A DNA stretch of 36,655 nt. Origin: Deltaproteobacteria bacterium (GTDB lineage Bacteria > Desulfobacterota > Syntrophia > Syntrophales > UBA6807). The notes beneath the pieces were generated by a model. The model searched no databases. It had not been told where the DNA came from and saw only the letters and a program-made list of their open reading frames with translations. The translations under genes were made by a program, and so were the position numbers. This document shows, one piece after another, positions 26,324 through 36,655 of the stretch. Location of the stretch: positions 1 to 36,655 of the forward strand of contig DSDU01000169.1 in NCBI GenBank assembly GCA_011056835.1, written 5' to 3'. Each line of letters opens with the position of its first letter. Within the stretch, counting starts at the first letter, position 1.

Positions 26324-26800
26324 ATGAGCAACGAAAAGACCTTTCGGCTGGAAAAGCGTGAGAGTGTCGGCATCGTCATTTTTAAAGTTATCGAGGAGGC
26401 CATGAATACATGGACCGAAAGGGCCCTCATGAGTTTCCGTGACGTCCCGGACGAACGGGAACAAGACGATACCCTCATCGGGGTTGTTTTCATTTCAGGA
26501 AAACCGACTAACTTTTTTGCCGGAGCCAACCTGAAAGTCATCGAACGGTTGAACACATGGGACGATACCATGGATGCATTGAATATCTTTCACGATTCCT
26601 TTAAACGAACCAGTAAATTGAAGATGCCGACGGTGGCCGCGATTAACGGCGCCTGCGTCGGCAGGGGACTTGAGTTCGTGCTTGCCCGCACGGCACGGCA
26701 TGCCACCGGCTTTCCCACCGACCGGGCCGGACCGCTGAAATGGGCTGATCTGACGGGACTCAGTAAAAGACTCTTCGGCACGATGTTCTACCGGCAATAA
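26324..26800 (+). pseudogene. Truncated enoyl-CoA hydratase/FadJ N-terminal fragment
   Basis: The 158-residue frame resembles the N-terminal crotonase region of FadJ/FadB-type proteins, for example GVVFISGKPTNFFAGANLK and KMPTVAAINGACVGRGLEF. The glycine-rich oxyanion loop reads GRG where GGG is usual. The similarity fades after FPTDRAG, where the catalytic region should continue, and a stop follows. A full crotonase domain is about 180-260 residues. The ribosome binding site GAGGAGG is intact, so it may still be translated. It is most likely decaying, or it is a shortened non-catalytic paralogue. Confidence 0.6.
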
Positions 26801-28416: not shown

Positions 28417-29274
28417 CTATTGAGCGGATGAAAGCCGTGTTGCCGCATTATACGTATTGGTCAGCAGCATAGCCCTCGTCATTGGTCCGACGCCGCCGGG
28501 AACCGGTGTTATATAGGAAGTCTTGTCAACGACCTCTGAGAAGGCGACATCCCCCACGAGCGTTCCGTCCTCACGTCGATTGATGCCGACATCAATGACC
28601 ACGGCGCCGTCACGAACCATCTCTCCTTTGATCATCTCGACGCTCCCCGCGGCGGCAACAAGAATTTCGGCCCTCCGGGTCACTTCGGAAAGATTTTTTG
28701 TTCGGGTATGACACACTGTGACTGTGGCATGTCTCGTAAGAAGCATCATCGCCAGTGGTTTGCCCACGATGTTGCTTCGTCCCACGATGACGACATTTTT
28801 CCCCTCAATTTTTATGCCATGCCGGTCCATGAGTTCGATGATTCCATAGGGCGTGCAGGCCTGATGGAAGGGATCACCGGTAAAAAGACGCCCCATATTA
28901 TAGGGGTGGAAGCCATCAACGTCCTTCCGGGGGTTGATCGCATCGATTATCGCATTTGCATTAATGTGCTGCGGAAGGGGGAGCTGCACCAATATGCCGT
29001 GAATCCTGCCGTCTCGATTCAGTTCATCGATGATGCTCAGTAACCGGTGTTCCTCCGTGTTCTCGGGCAACTTGAATTCCCTCGAGAAAAATCCGACTTC
29101 CTCACAGTCTTCCGTCTTTCTTCTCACATAAATCCGGGACGCGGGATCTTTTCCGACGAGGATCACCGCAAGCCCCGGAATAATTCCCCGTTGCTCCTGC
29201 AACGCGCCCACCTTGGCTTTTATTTCATACCGTATTTCCCGGGCGACATCATTGCCGTTGATAATTATGGGCAT
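28417..29274 (-). CDS. folD: Bifunctional methylene-THF dehydrogenase/cyclohydrolase FolD
   Basis: The 285-residue enzyme interconverts methylene- and formyl-tetrahydrofolate. The catalytic Tyr and Lys are visible in SRIYVRRKTEDCEEVGF. QLPLPQHIN and KDVDGFHPYN follow. The nucleotide site reads VVIVGRSNIVGKPLAM, and the C-terminus has TPVPGGVGPMTRAML. ATG 29274 gives a family-like N-terminus; ATG 29289 is in frame with AAGGG immediately before it. It may support one-carbon or Wood-Ljungdahl folate chemistry in an anaerobe (inference). Confidence 0.93.
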   Translation of the reverse strand: MPIIINGNDVAREIRYEIKAKVGALQEQRGIIPGLAVILVGKDPASRIYVRRKTEDCEEVGFFSREFKLPENTEEHRLLSIIDELNRDGRIHGILVQLPLPQHINANAIIDAINPRKDVDGFHPYNMGRLFTGDPFHQACTPYGIIELMDRHGIKIEGKNVVIVGRSNIVGKPLAMMLLTRHATVTVCHTRTKNLSEVTRRAEILVAAAGSVEMIKGEMVRDGAVVIDVGINRREDGTLVGDVAFSEVVDKTSYITPVPGGVGPMTRAMLLTNTYNAATRLSSAQ

Positions 29275-29339
29275 ATCACTCGCAACCATCCCTTTATTTT
29301 TTTCAGACGAAGCATCATGGGGACGAAACCCGGCATCGC

Positions 29340-29870
29340 TTATTCACTCTGCAGATCAATCGCCAGCTGCACCAGCGATGCAACCTGATCATCGGGAACA
29401 CGACCGCGCACGATGGCCCGGCAGACACGATTTTTATCCAGTATGATCGCGTTGGCCGTATCTTTCGTGAGTCCCCACGCACTTCGCAGTGATCCGTCAT
29501 AATCAAAGAGAATGGTCGTCTTATATTTTTTCGCCTTGTCGCCGGCGATCGTCCGGATGAGGAAATTCGGCTTCCATGTTGCGGCACAATCGGCAATGCC
29601 GATTCCTTTATAGGTTTCATCCGTCAGCAACCCGTCATTTTTCGCCTTCTTCATGGCTTCGGTAAAATGTTCGTTCAAATCCGATTCATCAGGATCAACA
29701 TAATTGATCAGCAGAACCTTTCCCGACCACGAATCCATGGTGAATGCCGTGCCGTCGGCATCCTCGAACGTCCAATCCGATGCTTTCATGCCGACCTGAA
29801 GCTCTTCCGCCTGTGCAACACCGCCAAGCAGCACTAATACGGCAACAGCCGCAACGAATATTTTCTTCAT
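29340..29870 (-). CDS. YtfJ-like exported thioredoxin-fold protein
   Basis: The 176-residue protein has a clear signal peptide (MKKIFVAAVAVLVLLGGVAQA, cut before EE). It resembles the YtfJ family, including WTFEDADGTAF, SGKVLLINYVDPDE and TTILFDYDGSLRSAWGL. The CxxC of true thioredoxins is missing, so a redox role is uncertain. It starts at 29870 behind GGAGGAGGGG; a longer frame begins 21 bp upstream. It precedes folD on the same strand with a gap of about 65 bp. Confidence 0.75.
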   Translation of the reverse strand: MKKIFVAAVAVLVLLGGVAQAEELQVGMKASDWTFEDADGTAFTMDSWSGKVLLINYVDPDESDLNEHFTEAMKKAKNDGLLTDETYKGIGIADCAATWKPNFLIRTIAGDKAKKYKTTILFDYDGSLRSAWGLTKDTANAIILDKNRVCRAIVRGRVPDDQVASLVQLAIDLQSE

Positions 29871-29915
29871 GGTCCCCTCCTCCCCGTTCACATTATTTTT
29901 AAACCCTGACTACGC

Positions 29916-30097: not shown

Positions 30098-30126
30098 TTG
30101 AAACAACCAATTCGATGTGCTATGGT
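30098..30126 (+). promoter_or_regulatory. Promoter of the beta-oxidation cluster
   Basis: TTGAAA (30098-30103), 17 bp, then TATGGT (30121-30126), preceded by TGC as an extended -10. It lies about 25 bp before the start at 30152. It shows that the in-frame upstream start at 30098 is not the real one. Confidence 0.7.
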
Positions 30127-30151
30127 ACCCCCGTTTCAATGGGAGGGCGTG

Positions 30152-31615
30152 ATGAGTACTGTCAGTCTCGGTATGATGCTGGAGGAGGTCAGAAATAAGT
30201 ATCCGGATAATGTGTCCCTCATTTACAATGACAGGCGATTAACCTATAACGAACTCAACAAATACAGTAACGCTTTGTCGCACGTTCTGAAAAATCTCGG
30301 CATCGTTAAGGGAGACAAAGTTTCCCTGATGCTCCCCAATATTCCCGAATTTGTCATATCGTATTTGTCTGTAGCGAAACTGGGGGCGGTTGCCGTAACC
30401 CTCAATGTTCTCTCAACACCTTATGAACTCACCTATCTTCTCAACAACAGCGATTCGAAAATTCTCATAACGACCTCGTCGTCTGCAAAAAAATTTGATG
30501 AAATACAAGACCGCCTTGACACCTGCAGGCACATGATATGCGTTGACGATCCCCATGACGACTCACCCTGTCGGAAAGCCTTCAGGGACGGACCGTTTGA
30601 TCTCGACATGGCCGATGTCGACGAAGATGACCCCGTGGTCATGATATACACCTCGGGCTTGACCGGCTATCCTCTCGGCGCCGTCCTGACACACGGGAAT
30701 CTATCAACCCAATGGACACTCCTCAAGGAAATCTGCGACGGAACGGATAAAGACCGGGGTCTCTCGGTGATTCCCTTCTTTCACTCCTTCGGTGCCTCGG
30801 CAAATTTACTGTCGGTCATTCACCTCGGAGCGAGTTCGGTGCTCATGGACCAATTCAGCATCGACAGGATCTTTCAGGTCATAGAACAGGAAAAAATCAC
30901 CTATATAGCCGCGGTTCCCCGCCTGTTTCTCGGAATGTTGATGCACCAAGGCGTAGAAAACTACGATTTGAGTTCACTGAGATTATGCATTACCGGCGGG
31001 TCGGCCATGCCTCCGAAGTTTATCCCTGCCTTCGAACAGAAATTCAACGTTAAGCTCATGGAGGGATACGGTCTCACCGAAGCATCCCCCGTCTGTTCGT
31101 TCAGCCGACTCCACATGAAACAGAAACCTGGATCAATCGGCACTCCCATACCGGGAGCCGAAGCCAAGATCGTTGACGGCAATGATAAAGACCTGCCGGC
31201 CGATACCGAGGGAGAACTCGTCGTCAGAGGAGCCAACGTGATGAAAGGCTACTACAAGGACGATGCGGCCACCGCCGAAGTCATCAGAAACGGATGGCTC
31301 CACACAGGAGATCTCGCAAGGATCGATAAAGACGGATACATCTTCCTCACCGGTCGGAAAAAACGAATGATTATCACGAGCGGTTTTAACGTATATCCCC
31401 GGGAAGTAGAACTTGTCCTCACCATGCATCCCGCCGTTGAAGAATCCCGAGTTGTGGCACAACCCGACCTGATGAGGGGTGAAATCGTTAAGGCTCTCAT
31501 CGTCAAGAAGGATGACGCCGAAGCGGATGAAAAGGATATCCTGAAACATTGCAGGAAGTATCTGTCTTCACATAAAATTCCCCGAGAAGTGGAATTTGTT
31601 AATGGTCTTGACTAA
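30152..31615 (+). CDS. AMP-forming acyl-CoA synthetase homologue, probably impaired
   Basis: The 487-residue protein has the ANL-superfamily layout. The core motifs GYGLTEASP, WLHTGDLARIDKDGY and GRKKRMIITSGFNVYPREVE are intact. The P-loop, normally YTSGTTGxPKGA, reads YTSGLTGYPLGA, so the usual Thr and Lys are L170 and L175. The protein stops at VEFVNGLD, just before the usual A10 motif with its catalytic Lys. The in-frame codons after the stop read PSPGRPL, then another stop, which looks like a decayed A10. The start is supported by GGGAGG and the promoter. It is the first gene of the cluster. It may be inactive in adenylation or retain another role. Confidence 0.8.
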   Translation: MSTVSLGMMLEEVRNKYPDNVSLIYNDRRLTYNELNKYSNALSHVLKNLGIVKGDKVSLMLPNIPEFVISYLSVAKLGAVAVTLNVLSTPYELTYLLNNSDSKILITTSSSAKKFDEIQDRLDTCRHMICVDDPHDDSPCRKAFRDGPFDLDMADVDEDDPVVMIYTSGLTGYPLGAVLTHGNLSTQWTLLKEICDGTDKDRGLSVIPFFHSFGASANLLSVIHLGASSVLMDQFSIDRIFQVIEQEKITYIAAVPRLFLGMLMHQGVENYDLSSLRLCITGGSAMPPKFIPAFEQKFNVKLMEGYGLTEASPVCSFSRLHMKQKPGSIGTPIPGAEAKIVDGNDKDLPADTEGELVVRGANVMKGYYKDDAATAEVIRNGWLHTGDLARIDKDGYIFLTGRKKRMIITSGFNVYPREVELVLTMHPAVEESRVVAQPDLMRGEIVKALIVKKDDAEADEKDILKHCRKYLSSHKIPREVEFVNGLD

Positions 31616-31811
31616 CCGTCGCCTGGCAGGCCCCTGTAATCTCATAGTGGCGGATTGCAGGCAGCGGATCGATCACATACTCGGCAATACATAACACATA
31701 ATAGATCGTTAGACCTGTCTTCTGCAGGGCCCTAACCGGCCAGGGGTTGAAGATGCGGTATAACGATAGTAAGGAAGGCGATACTTAAAAAAAATGAGAA
31801 GGAGGAACTAC

Positions 31812-33173
31812 ATGTCAAAGGTACCCCAAAAACTCGATAAGAAGAGAGCCGATGTCTATAAGGATGCTCCGATTGCGAAATTCGGTGCAAGAAAGCCGGA
31901 TTTTTCCACCATGGGGGGAAAAATAAAAAATCAATACAAACAGCACCGGGAAGTGGTCATTGTTGAGGCGTGTCGGACACCGTACGGCAGATTCGGCGGC
32001 GGGCTTATGAGTTATGACGCTCCCCAACTGGGTGCTCTGGCAATAAAGGAAGTTCTAAGAAGAACCAACGGCAAGGTCAAACCGGAAGACATCGATTATA
32101 TCTTCATGGGGCAGGTCGTCCCCGCCGGATGCGGTCAGGTTCCCAGCCGCCAGGCAACCATACTGGCCGGCATTCCTGAATATGTCCCCTCAATTACCGT
32201 TAATAAGGTCTGTTCCTCGGGAATCAAGACCATCGACCTGGCAGCCCAGATGATTCAGTTGGGACGGGCTGAGATCGCCGTTGCCGGCGGCCAGGAAAGC
32301 ATGAGCAACTGCCCCTTTTCGCTTCCCGGAATGAGATGGGGAACGAGAATGGGATTGACCACAGCACCTTCCGTTGACCTCATGGTGTACGATGGTCTGT
32401 GGGACGCCTTTTATAATCGACACATGGCCATTCACGGTTCGGAAACGGCCGATGAGTTCGGATTTACGCGGCAGGATCAGGACGACTGGGCCCTTCAGTC
32501 ACAGCAGCGAGCCGGCAAGGCGATTGCGGAGGGCAGACTGGATGACGAAATATTTCCCGTAGAAGTACGACAAGGGAAAAAGACCGTCATCGTCGACAAG
32601 GACGAATTCCCCCGGCCTGATACGACCATGGAAACACTTTCGAAACTGCCTCCCGTCTTCGGTCACAAGAGCTCCGTGACCGGCGAACCGGGAAGCGTCA
32701 CCGCCGGAAACGCCCCCGGCGTCAATGACGGCGGCGATGTGTGCTTGCTCATGTCAAGGGAAAAGGCGGATGAACTGGGATTAAAACCGCTCTTTTCTAT
32801 TATAGATTACGCCGAGGTGTCACAGCCCACGAAGGATATCGCCACGGTTCCCGGTCTTTCCATCAAGAAAGTACTGGAGCAGAATAACATGACGGTGGAT
32901 GATGTCGATATCATCGAGATCAACGAAGCCTTCGCCGCCGTGGCGCTCATCAGCGCCCGGACCATTCTCGGACTATCCAAGGAACAGATGTATGAAAAGG
33001 TAAATGTGAACGGCAGCGCTATCGCCTATGGACATCCTATCGGAGCAACGGGAGCCAGAATCGTCATGACCTTGGCATATGAACTGCGCCGCCGGGGCGG
33101 AGGAATCGGCGTGTGCGGTATCTGCTCGGGCCATGCCCAGGGTGATGCGATGCTGATAAAGGTAGAACCGTGA
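31812..33173 (+). CDS. Thiolase (acetyl-CoA acyltransferase) with N-terminal extension
   Basis: The 453-residue protein catalyses thiolytic cleavage or Claisen condensation. The nucleophile is C134 in VNKVCSSGIK. INEAFA, GHPIGATGAR and a C-terminal Cys motif, here CSGHAQGDA where CxGGGQG is usual, complete the site. A lysine-rich extension of about 45 residues precedes the thiolase fold (VVIVEACRTP). The start follows AGGAGG. A second, different thiolase lies 72 bp downstream. It may act on a longer or modified acyl-CoA (inference). Confidence 0.9.
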   Translation: MSKVPQKLDKKRADVYKDAPIAKFGARKPDFSTMGGKIKNQYKQHREVVIVEACRTPYGRFGGGLMSYDAPQLGALAIKEVLRRTNGKVKPEDIDYIFMGQVVPAGCGQVPSRQATILAGIPEYVPSITVNKVCSSGIKTIDLAAQMIQLGRAEIAVAGGQESMSNCPFSLPGMRWGTRMGLTTAPSVDLMVYDGLWDAFYNRHMAIHGSETADEFGFTRQDQDDWALQSQQRAGKAIAEGRLDDEIFPVEVRQGKKTVIVDKDEFPRPDTTMETLSKLPPVFGHKSSVTGEPGSVTAGNAPGVNDGGDVCLLMSREKADELGLKPLFSIIDYAEVSQPTKDIATVPGLSIKKVLEQNNMTVDDVDIIEINEAFAAVALISARTILGLSKEQMYEKVNVNGSAIAYGHPIGATGARIVMTLAYELRRRGGGIGVCGICSGHAQGDAMLIKVEP

Positions 33174-33245: not shown

Positions 33246-34535
33246 ATGGGAGATGTAGTAATTGTCAGTGGAGCGCGGACTGCAGTCGGTGAATTCGGCG
33301 GTTCGCTAAAAGGAGTTTCCGTCGTGGAACTGGGAAGACTTGTCATTAAGGAAGCGATTAAGCGGGCGGGACTGCGTCCGACAATCAACGATTTCGTCAA
33401 ATCGGCCCGTCCCACCATTTTCGGCGAGTTCGACATGACGGATCTGCAGAAAAAGCATTATGATTATGACGAATCATTGACTCCGGTCTATTTCGACGAG
33501 GTCATTATGGGGAACGTTCTCACCGCAGGCGTAGGACAGAACCCCCCCCGCCAGGCTTCAATCTATGCCGGACTGCCGGAAGAGACCAACGTCATCACCG
33601 TCCAGAAGGTTTGCGCTTCGGGCATGAAGGCCATTTCTCTGGCATCCCAGATTATCCAGGCAGGCGATGCCGACATCATGGTCGCCGGCGGCATGGAAAA
33701 CATGAGCAATGTCCCCTATGCACTGCCCAATGCCCGGTGGGGATACCGGATGAACATGCCTTACGGCCAGGCAACGGACCTCATGGTTCACGACGGTCTG
33801 TGGGAAATCTTCAACGCCTATCATATGGGAAACACGGCGGAAAACATCGCTGAGAAGTATGGTATCTCGAGAGAAGAACAGGATAAGCTCGCATACGAGA
33901 GTCACATGAGAGCCCGTGCCGCCAACGCAAACGGTACCGTGGCCGATGAGATTGTTCCAGTCGTCATTCCCCAGAGAAAAGGCGATCCGAAGGTGTTCGC
34001 AGTAGACGAACGCCCCATGGACACCACCCTTGAAAAAATGGCCAAACTCGCGCCGGTTTTCAGAAAGGGCGGAACGGTAACAGCCGGGAATGCCTCCGGT
34101 ATCAATGATGCTGCGGCAGCCGTGGTGGTCATGAGTGCCGAAAAGGCAAAGGAACTTGGACTTAAACCGATGGTTAAAATCAAGGGATTCGCCTCAGGCG
34201 GCATCGATCCTGCTTATATGGGACTCGGACCGATCCCGGCAGTACGAAAGGTCTTCAAGAAACTCGGCCTTACCACCAAGGACATTGACCTGTGGGAACT
34301 CAATGAAGCATTTGCCTGTCAGGCTCTCGGTTGTATAAAAGAGTTGGACATTGATCTTAACAAGTGCAATCTCAACGGCAGTGGAATCTCCATCGGTCAC
34401 CCCATCGGATGTACCGGCGCCCGGATTACCTACACACTGGCAAACCAGATGGTCAAGAATGACCTCAACCTGGGATGCGCATCACTCTGTATCGGCGGCG
34501 GCCAGGGTATGGCCATCGTTCTGGAGAGAGTGTAA
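33246..34535 (+). CDS. Acetyl-CoA acetyltransferase (thiolase)
   Basis: The 429-residue thiolase has the nucleophile C123 in VQKVCASGMK. LNEAFA, GHPIGCTGAR and LCIGGGQGMA are all canonical. About 33 extra residues are inserted at about 45-80 compared with standard bacterial thiolases. It is the likely final-step enzyme of the cluster, cleaving acetoacetyl-CoA or forming it in reverse. The start follows AAGGAG. Confidence 0.93.
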   Translation: MGDVVIVSGARTAVGEFGGSLKGVSVVELGRLVIKEAIKRAGLRPTINDFVKSARPTIFGEFDMTDLQKKHYDYDESLTPVYFDEVIMGNVLTAGVGQNPPRQASIYAGLPEETNVITVQKVCASGMKAISLASQIIQAGDADIMVAGGMENMSNVPYALPNARWGYRMNMPYGQATDLMVHDGLWEIFNAYHMGNTAENIAEKYGISREEQDKLAYESHMRARAANANGTVADEIVPVVIPQRKGDPKVFAVDERPMDTTLEKMAKLAPVFRKGGTVTAGNASGINDAAAAVVVMSAEKAKELGLKPMVKIKGFASGGIDPAYMGLGPIPAVRKVFKKLGLTTKDIDLWELNEAFACQALGCIKELDIDLNKCNLNGSGISIGHPIGCTGARITYTLANQMVKNDLNLGCASLCIGGGQGMAIVLERV

Positions 34536-34731: not shown

Positions 34732-35589
34732 ATGGAAGTAAAAACATTTGGCGTGGTCGGAGCCGGTCAGATGGGAAACGGTATTGCCCAGGTTGCGGCA
34801 TATCCCGGGGAACTCAATGTTATTATGAATGATATCGCCGACGAGTTCGTCCAGAGGGGATTCAATACCATTTCCAAAAATCTGGACAGACTCGTTGCCA
34901 AGGAAAAGCTGACTGCCGCCCAGAAAGACGAAATTCTCGGTCGGATCAAGTTGAGCACTAACCTTGAGGACATGAAGGATGCCGACTTCGTCGTCGAAGC
35001 TGCAATCGAACGGGAAGATCTGAAACTCGGAATCTTCAAAAAACTCGATGAAGTCTGCAAACCCGGCGTCATTCTGTCGTCAAATACATCATCGATTCCC
35101 ATCACACGCATTGCCGCGGCGACAAAGAGACCGGGACTGGTTATCGGTATGCACTTCATGAATCCCGTTCCCGTTATGAGGCTTGTCGAGATCATCAGGG
35201 GCCTTGCAACAACTGATGGAACATACGAACTGACGAAGAAACTGTCGGAACAGTTCGGAAAAGTCCCCGTGGAGTGTAACGATTTCCCGGGCTTTATCTC
35301 GAACAGGGTACTTATGCCCATGATTAATGAAGCAGTTTACGCCCTTTTTGAAGGAGTCGGAACACCCGAAGCCATCGATAACATCATGAAACTTGGTATG
35401 AATCACCCCATGGGACCGCTTGCACTGGGCGATTTGATCGGTCTGGATACGTGCTGGGCCATCATGGACGTCCTCCACAAGGGATTCGGTGATTCCAAAT
35501 ACCGTCCCTGCCCGCTGCTGAAGAAATATGTCGACGCCGGATGGCTGGGACGAAAGACAGGAAGGGGATTCTACGACTACAGCAAGTAG
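34732..35589 (+). CDS. 3-Hydroxyacyl-CoA (3-hydroxybutyryl-CoA) dehydrogenase
   Basis: The 285-residue NAD-dependent enzyme has the Rossmann motif [16 protein letters not shown] at the N-terminus. The active-site region contains [10 protein letters not shown] and the catalytic His in [31 protein letters not shown] and [16 protein letters not shown] complete the C-terminal domain. Length is that of stand-alone butyrate-type enzymes. ATG 34732 behind GGAGGAGGGG is preferred over 34654. Confidence 0.94.
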
Positions 35590-35631: not shown

Positions 35632-36414
35632 ATGGCATACAACAATATCATTTTTGAAGTGGAAGATAGCGTTGCAACCATCATGTTCAACCGGCCCAAG
35701 GCACTGAATGCCATGAATTCGGAAACGATGGGAGAATTTATGGATGCAATCAAGCGGTGCGGCGATGATGACGGCATAAAAGCCGTTATCGTTACCGGTG
35801 GCGGAGAAAAGGCGTTTGTTGCCGGAGCTGACATTGCGGAAATGCAGGACCTGGAACCCAGCGAAGCGCTGAAATTCATGGAACGGGGCCACGAAACCTA
35901 TCGGGCGCTTGAACTGCTTCCCAAACCTTCCATTGCGGCGGTTCGAGGATTCGCCCTTGGCGGGGGCACTGAAATCGCCATGTCCTGCGATATCAGGTTC
36001 GCCGCCGACAATGCCCGTTTCGGTCAGCCTGAAATCCTGCTCGGCCTGACACCCGGGTGGGGAGGAACGCAGCGGCTGCCCCGACTCATCGGTATAGGCA
36101 GGGCTTTGGAACTTCTCATGAGCGGCGGACAGATCGATGCTCAGCGGGCGTATGAAATCGGCCTGGTCAACAAGGTGGTTCCCGCCGATCAACTGATGGA
36201 TGAAACGAAGAAATTCGCCAAAAAACTGGCGGGAATGCCTGCGTTCGCCATCAAGATGATCAAACACGCCGTCAATTTCGGACAGGAATTGCCTCTGGAT
36301 CATGCGAACAGGCTCGAGATGGAGTGCTGCGCCCAGTGTTTCAGCACCCATGATCAAAAAGAAGGGATGAAGGCTTTCCTCGAAAAAAGAAAAGCCAATT
36401 TCATTGGTCGTTGA
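35632..36414 (+). CDS. Enoyl-CoA hydratase (crotonase)
   Basis: The 260-residue enzyme hydrates enoyl-CoA to 3-hydroxyacyl-CoA. KAFVAGADIAEM and the oxyanion loop FALGGGTEIAM are visible. Both catalytic glutamates are present, in GGGTEIA and in FGQPEILLGLTPG. The C-terminus is complete. It follows the dehydrogenase by 42 bp, and its ribosome binding site is strong. Confidence 0.95.
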   Translation: MAYNNIIFEVEDSVATIMFNRPKALNAMNSETMGEFMDAIKRCGDDDGIKAVIVTGGGEKAFVAGADIAEMQDLEPSEALKFMERGHETYRALELLPKPSIAAVRGFALGGGTEIAMSCDIRFAADNARFGQPEILLGLTPGWGGTQRLPRLIGIGRALELLMSGGQIDAQRAYEIGLVNKVVPADQLMDETKKFAKKLAGMPAFAIKMIKHAVNFGQELPLDHANRLEMECCAQCFSTHDQKEGMKAFLEKRKANFIGR

Positions 36415-36549: not shown

Positions 36550-36655
36550 ATGAATTTTGCACCGACAGAAGAGCAACAAATGGTACGGGACATGGTGGCG
36601 CGGTATGTGGACGAGGCGATCAAGCCGATCGCCGGCGATCTGGATCATACCCACC
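36550..36655 (+). CDS. Acyl-CoA dehydrogenase, 5' end only
   Basis: The frame starts MNFAPTEEQQMVRDMVARYV behind AAGGAGGAA and runs off the right edge after about 35 codons. The TEEQQMVRDMVARYVDE pattern is typical of the N-terminal helical domain of acyl-CoA dehydrogenases. It would supply the first oxidation of the beta-oxidation cycle. Confidence 0.8.
   Translation, partial: MNFAPTEEQQMVRDMVARYVDEAIKPIAGDLDHTH

Follow-up and report, generated by a model that had tools for sequence, protein, structure and literature searches.

The question raised by this locus is whether an acyl-CoA synthetase-like gene that lacks residues central to two adenylation motifs is a broken gene, or whether it encodes a protein that is maintained for another job. 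The gene is the first of a beta-oxidation cluster near the end of a Syntrophales contig, all 36,655 nucleotides of which constitute the window that was analysed (Table 1). An earlier reading made from the letters of this window (the sequence-only reading) had left both answers standing, in that it proposed either a recent pseudogene or a repurposed binding or thioester-handling protein.

Table 1. Features of the synthetase-like gene, its product and its surroundings, in window coordinates.
Feature	Position	Strand	Basis or remark
FolD, divergent neighbour	28417..29289	-	Pfam; conserved in about half of neighbourhoods
YtfJ_HI0045-family protein, divergent neighbour	29340..29891	-	Pfam; conserved in part of the order
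Sigma-70-like promoter candidate TTGAAA-17-TATGGT	30098..30126	+	TG precedes second hexamer
Shine-Dalgarno-like purine-rich stretch gggagg	30141..30146	+	Ahead of ATG, read from sequence
Putative pseudo-acyl-CoA synthetase gene, 487 aa	30152..31615	+	ORF and translation, Pfam, orthologues
Motif A3 (P-loop) YTSGLTGYPLGA, residues 166-177	30647..30682	+	Motif census
Motif A5 GYGLTEASP, residues 305-313, kept	31064..31090	+	Glu310 in 89/89 family rows
Motif A7 GWLHTGDL, residues 381-388, ribose-binding Asp387 kept	31292..31315	+	Asp387 in 89/89 family rows
Motif A8 GRKKRMIITSGFNVYPREVE, residues 401-420	31352..31411	+	Motif census
Arg442, CoA-pocket position (Trp440 of CBL, Arg490 of Macs, by motif anchors)	31475..31477	+	Census
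HKIPR, residues 474-478, approximately Phe473-Lys477 of CBL, CoA nucleotide pocket	31571..31585	+	Census
Stop codon immediately ahead of A10 position; conserved end	31613..31615	+	Paralogue and orthologue comparison
In-frame PSPGRPL and second TAA (31637-31639); untranslated spacer, probably no A10 relic	31616..31639	+	
Thiolase 1 (acetyl-CoA acyltransferase)	31812..33173	+	Pfam
Thiolase 2	33246..34535	+	Pfam
3-Hydroxyacyl-CoA dehydrogenase	34732..35589	+	Pfam
Enoyl-CoA hydratase; contig ends soon after, at 36655	35632..36414	+	Pfam

The start of the open reading frame agrees with the N-terminus shared by the family (MxLGxMLEE), and the frame closes with a TAA codon. PF00501 is matched at full length with 318.8 bits, and PF13193 with 53.2 bits over the first 69 of its 76 profile positions. 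Both scores clear the cut-off, and the two domains are present together in all 24 family members checked. The fold of the predicted model matches those of 4CL, FscC and MenE. FadD-type ligases (NF004837 / PRK06187, PF00501 plus PF13193) share with the family this fold, the domain order and motifs A4, A5 and A7, and identity to the paralogues of the same genome is 26-36%. The family differs from these enzymes by its missing P-loop Thr and Lys, its missing A10 and an altered A8, and the 487-residue protein scores below the curated threshold of NF004837 (long-chain-fatty-acid--CoA ligase; 451.9 versus 476). A promoter had also been claimed for the gene. The candidate site is indeed present, but it constitutes weak evidence because four such sites were found in the region when 2.3 +/- 1.7 are expected.

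As the sequence-only reading had stated, Leu170 and Leu175 stand where the Thr and Lys of the P-loop are usual. A motif census was carried out on 89 family, 10 sister-clade and 31 canonical rows, with at least two of the family rows representing one record reached twice. Position 170 is Leu in every family and sister row and in none of the canonical rows, all 31 of which carry Thr, and Lys at position 175 is absent from all 89 family and 10 sister rows but present in all 31 canonical ones. In the same-genome paralogues whose P-loop was covered (e.g. L002), the motif reads YTSGTTGEPKG. Family members still share most of the P-loop backbone motif. Some members (L020, L028, L032, L033) exhibit additional decay, with sequences such as TSGLTSKSLGA, TSGLMGNSLGA and TAGLIGDPLGA, as would be expected if phosphate binding were no longer selected.

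The claim that the protein ends just before A10 is likewise borne out. Its C-terminus is ...PREVEFVNGLD, and the canonical paralogues of the same genome run on past this point into PKTxxGK or a similar sequence (e.g. PKTVTGK). The first ~30 orthologues read all terminate at the same place, and 88 of the 89 family rows end within 15 residues of F482 without an A10, the remaining row (L214) being open to a contig edge. Such uniformity, in the P-loop and in the ending alike, is not a product of chance. No close orthologue with a normal A10 was found among these 89 rows. A sequencing error at the stop is ruled out, since the window gene stops at TAA where its same-genus relative has TGA.

Other ways in which the motif might be supplied were considered. 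When all three frames were scanned across the gene end, A10-like peptides appeared in 27 of 27 canonical controls and at only one of 89 family loci, where the match (PDRRRGKP in L223) lies past the stop and resembles a chance occurrence. At the other 88 loci, the 150 nucleotides past the end encode nothing like A10 in any frame, which rules out restoration of the motif by frameshifting or read-through. There is also no room for an A10 on a separate gene where the thiolase gene follows closely. The in-frame codons PSPGRPL and the second TAA exist as described, but their interpretation as a decayed A10 is unsupported because the loss is common to the whole order and predates its diversification; moreover, the tails of relatives differ.

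These changes are not peculiar to one genome. A homologue search of 60 relatives returned orthologues at 52-84% identity, and 129 of 155 Syntrophales genomes contain a match with E <= 1e-140, nearly always in single copy; most of the genomes compared are metagenome assemblies, and among those of better quality the gene is present in 80 of 92. In a contig scan with two short patterns, the matches listed include metagenome-assembled genomes labelled Syntrophobacterales, Syntrophus, Smithella or Deltaproteobacteria (L080-L085). Values of dN/dS for eight pairs range from 0.03 to 0.25, which are rough estimates given that several dS values exceed 1, and the comparison of the window gene with its same-genus relative yields 0.05-0.07. 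The family gene is under purifying selection. Because most of the order carries the same stripped-down version, we regard the product as a protein that is maintained for a different task and not as the remnant of a broken gene.

To what extent adenylation is lost depends on the weight given to each motif. In 4-chlorobenzoate:CoA ligase (CBL), mutation of the P-loop Lys costs only 4-fold, mutation of the first Thr of the P-loop motif costs 2,000-fold, and mutation of the A8 Arg costs 100-fold (PMC8388817). That 2,000-fold cost belongs to the counterpart of Thr167, which the family protein retains, and not to position 170. The loss of the P-loop Lys is real, but it is less decisive than the sequence-only reading had implied. 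AcsA cannot adenylate without its A10 Lys, and mutation of this Lys in PrpE and firefly luciferase spares the second half-reaction (PMC11255334); the precedent cited earlier for this separation of half-reactions therefore holds for the latter two enzymes, although this source does not extend it to the Salmonella acetyl-CoA synthetase that had been named. Since the effect of the P-loop Lys in CBL is so small, the case for lost adenylation rests mainly on A10, with the P-loop and A8 as support, and judged from these sequence patterns it is well supported. Some weak adenylation, perhaps by use of another basic residue, is nevertheless conceivable, because the P-loop backbone is mostly conserved and the Lys effect in CBL is just 4-fold. 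The family resembles the A10-Lys mutants of PrpE and luciferase in that the Lys is gone but the C-terminal domain is otherwise retained. However, those mutants were made in the laboratory, whereas the loss in the family is natural, ancestral and joined with P-loop changes.

The remaining motifs present a different picture. The conservation of A5 and A7 (Table 1) extends to His211 of A4, which is found in all 89 family rows. This distinguishes the family from FLD2 of eukaryotic DIP2 (fatty acyl-AMP ligase-like domain 2), another ANL domain that is thought to be without adenylation and to have diverged in function (PMC9342972), but whose A5 and A7 are degenerate and which is fused to an active domain and is not orthologous. 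Within A8, the hinge was placed at Lys404 by the pattern Rx(D/K)x6G (PMC8388817), and this residue is present in 89 of 89 family rows; Gly411, which opens the pantetheine tunnel, is present in 87. Arg402 is less constant, occurring in 60 family rows (the window protein included) and missing from 29, absent from all 10 sister rows and present in all 31 canonical ones. Residue 405 is Arg or Lys throughout the family, Asp, Glu or Gln in the sister clade, and Asp or Glu in canonical proteins.

From motif anchors, not by sequence alignment, residue 442 was matched to Trp440 of CBL and Arg490 of Macs, and residue 474 to Phe473 of CBL and Tyr525 of Macs. In Macs or CBL, changes at these pocket residues impair the CoA step but leave adenylation largely intact (PMC10455477). 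Position 474 is Tyr or Phe in 87 of 89 family rows and His in the window protein, Lys475 is found in all 89 rows, and Arg442 and Arg478 are invariant across the family and sister clade (99 of 99 rows) but variable in canonical rows. As placed by these anchors, the residues of the CoA half are kept, namely the A8 Gly, the Arg and aromatic residue of the CoA pocket, and the hinge Lys. This pattern, with adenylation parts gone and CoA-side positions retained, favors the suggestion of a repurposed binding or thioester-handling protein.

An AlphaFold model of the 487-residue protein (pLDDT 87, low at residues 405-414) is more similar to 4CL with AMP and CoA (5bsr, TM 0.91) than to 4CL with ATP (5bsm, 0.77), and more similar to luciferase in its second conformation (4g37, 0.88) than in its adenylate-forming one (4g36, 0.76). 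The family model is thus closer to thioester-state than to adenylate-state structures, which we consider no more than suggestive because the model of a canonical FadD control was too poor (pLDDT 59). By contrast, the AlphaFold model published for AcsA of B. subtilis adopts the adenylation conformation (PMC11255334).

Evidence on the order of these changes is provided by a sister clade (rows L170-L179) found in 20 of 24 genomes of another order of the same phylum (that of G213). In a tree built by a quick method, SH-aLRT support is 99 for the family, 97 for the sister clade and 99 for the two together. Sister-clade proteins end near 495 amino acids and have the P-loop SSGLTGYPMGA, with the same Thr-to-Leu change and lost Lys. 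Unlike the family, they keep a shortened A10 (IPRDxxGK or IPRDxxGR), are without the A8 Arg, and are encoded beside a conserved radical-SAM-like gene (~300 aa, activating-enzyme-like) instead of beta-oxidation genes. This clade is a second, separately placed synthetase-like family whose adenylation is probably altered. Because it shares the P-loop changes yet keeps a weakened A10, the P-loop changes probably came first and the A10 loss followed later in the Syntrophales line.

In 31 of 44 neighbourhoods the family gene has a same-strand thiolase gene immediately downstream. Of the 38 neighbourhoods that extend at least 3 kb downstream, 36 contain a gene for a thiolase, hydratase, dehydrogenase, ETF or membrane FeS oxidoreductase. 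A canonical FadD with full motifs resides in the same cluster in 10 genomes, and such genes also occur elsewhere in the genome of the window. One relative (G039) is presumably Syntrophus aciditrophicus SB, an assignment that fits a gene order with EtfB beside a 656-aa Acs. By our reading of its sequences rather than by Pfam, the family gene at C1:2659026-2660495 of this genome is followed by genes for a thiolase and a phosphoglycerate mutase, and the opposite strand carries FadD, a 489-aa open reading frame, an FeS protein, EtfA, EtfB and Acs1. The family gene lies 10 kb from Acs1 (SYN_02635), which likewise belongs to the AMP-forming CoA synthetase family. In S. aciditrophicus this acetyl-CoA synthetase has been demonstrated to run backwards, with formation of ATP (PMC4992975).

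Taken together, these patterns make it probable, though by no means assured, that the family is a maintained, adenylation-deficient group of CoA-thioester-binding proteins. They belong to the ANL superfamily, which comprises acyl-CoA synthetases, adenylation domains and luciferases; of the two half-reactions they would have given up adenylation and retained the CoA step. Such a protein would rest in or near the thioester-forming arrangement and bind CoA thioesters with or without AMP, and it would not form acyl-AMP from ATP efficiently. We found no published description of this family, or of an acyl-CoA synthetase pseudoenzyme of this kind, in the open-licence literature. Any more exact role can be proposed only tentatively. 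The protein may bind acyl-CoA or act as a regulator, in partnership with the active ligases and thiolase of the beta-oxidation cluster, or it may catalyse solely the interconversion of acyl-AMP plus CoA with acyl-CoA plus AMP. The partner role appears somewhat more likely, because the A8 Arg is not maintained (missing in 29 of 89 rows).

The second of these roles, a special case of the preferred explanation in which acyl-AMP would be exchanged with FadD or Acs1, strikes us as rather unlikely. It fits the selective loss of adenylation parts beside a kept CoA pocket, the ability of A10 mutants of known enzymes to perform this step, and the cluster shared with an Acs1 that is ATP-directed in S. 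aciditrophicus (PMC4992975). However, acyl-AMP does not usually occur as a free metabolite, the interface with a partner is only putative, and the frequent absence of an Arg with a 100-fold effect in CBL argues against an efficient second half-reaction. Should such a natural half-ligase operate with FadD or Acs1 in syntrophs, acid activation or ATP recovery would be split over two proteins, an arrangement for which we hold out a slim prospect.

A full acyl-CoA ligase, in which another basic residue such as Arg405 or the KKR stretch of A8 replaces the A10 Lys, seems a little less probable than the half-reaction. The strict retention of A4, A5 and A7 residues and of most of the P-loop is compatible with this proposal, as is the location in a fatty-acid catabolism cluster, and the change of residue 405 from Asp or Glu to Arg or Lys is seen in all 89 rows of the family that lost A10 and not in the sister clade that keeps it. 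Weighing against it are the additional loss of both P-loop residues, the optional A8 Arg, and the canonical, full-motif FadD genes located in the same cluster in many genomes and elsewhere in this one. Derivation of an acyl-CoA hydrolase or transferase from a ligase is improbable; a CoA thioester site without an ATP step leaves hydrolysis or transfer possible, but no new catalytic residues are evident, and the family-specific conserved residues (Arg257, Thr281, Arg405, Thr409 and Ser410) form no recognised triad. Finally, the recent pseudogene of the sequence-only reading, or an assembly artefact, is what the missing motifs and early stop would suggest from the window alone, but it is rejected given the same state in 88 of 89 orthologue rows, mostly single-copy orthologues in most genomes of the order, low dN/dS, a conserved operon position and a relative whose stop at this site is another codon.

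Members of the Syntrophales live close to the thermodynamic limit. Their means of activating acids and of regaining ATP from acyl-CoA are under active study, and one model member uses an acetyl-CoA synthetase backwards. A widespread synthetase, apparently dead for adenylation, that heads a beta-oxidation cluster near Acs1 suggests a step or control point that has so far gone unrecognised. Annotation by similarity would name these genes fatty-acid-CoA ligases, and pathway reconstructions may therefore count an activity that is probably absent. Together with the sister clade, the family would form an evolutionary series from a two-step enzyme to a pseudo-synthetase, in which the P-loop was changed and A10 was first weakened and then lost. 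The family occurs widely in an order of central ecological importance, and a cultured model organism is available in which to test it.

Several other features of these neighbourhoods were observed. A phosphoglycerate mutase gene, ApgM-like or iPGM-like by sequence, is located in the beta-oxidation cluster of many Syntrophales (e.g. L054, 11957-13165, and L061). The divergent YtfJ_HI0045-family protein has a signal-peptide-like start and adjoins the family gene in ~12 neighbourhoods. Further upstream in the window, a 158-aa open reading frame (26324-26800, + strand) matches only positions 15-109 of 251 of ECH_1, and looks like a truncated enoyl-CoA hydratase or FadB fragment that is possibly a pseudogene.
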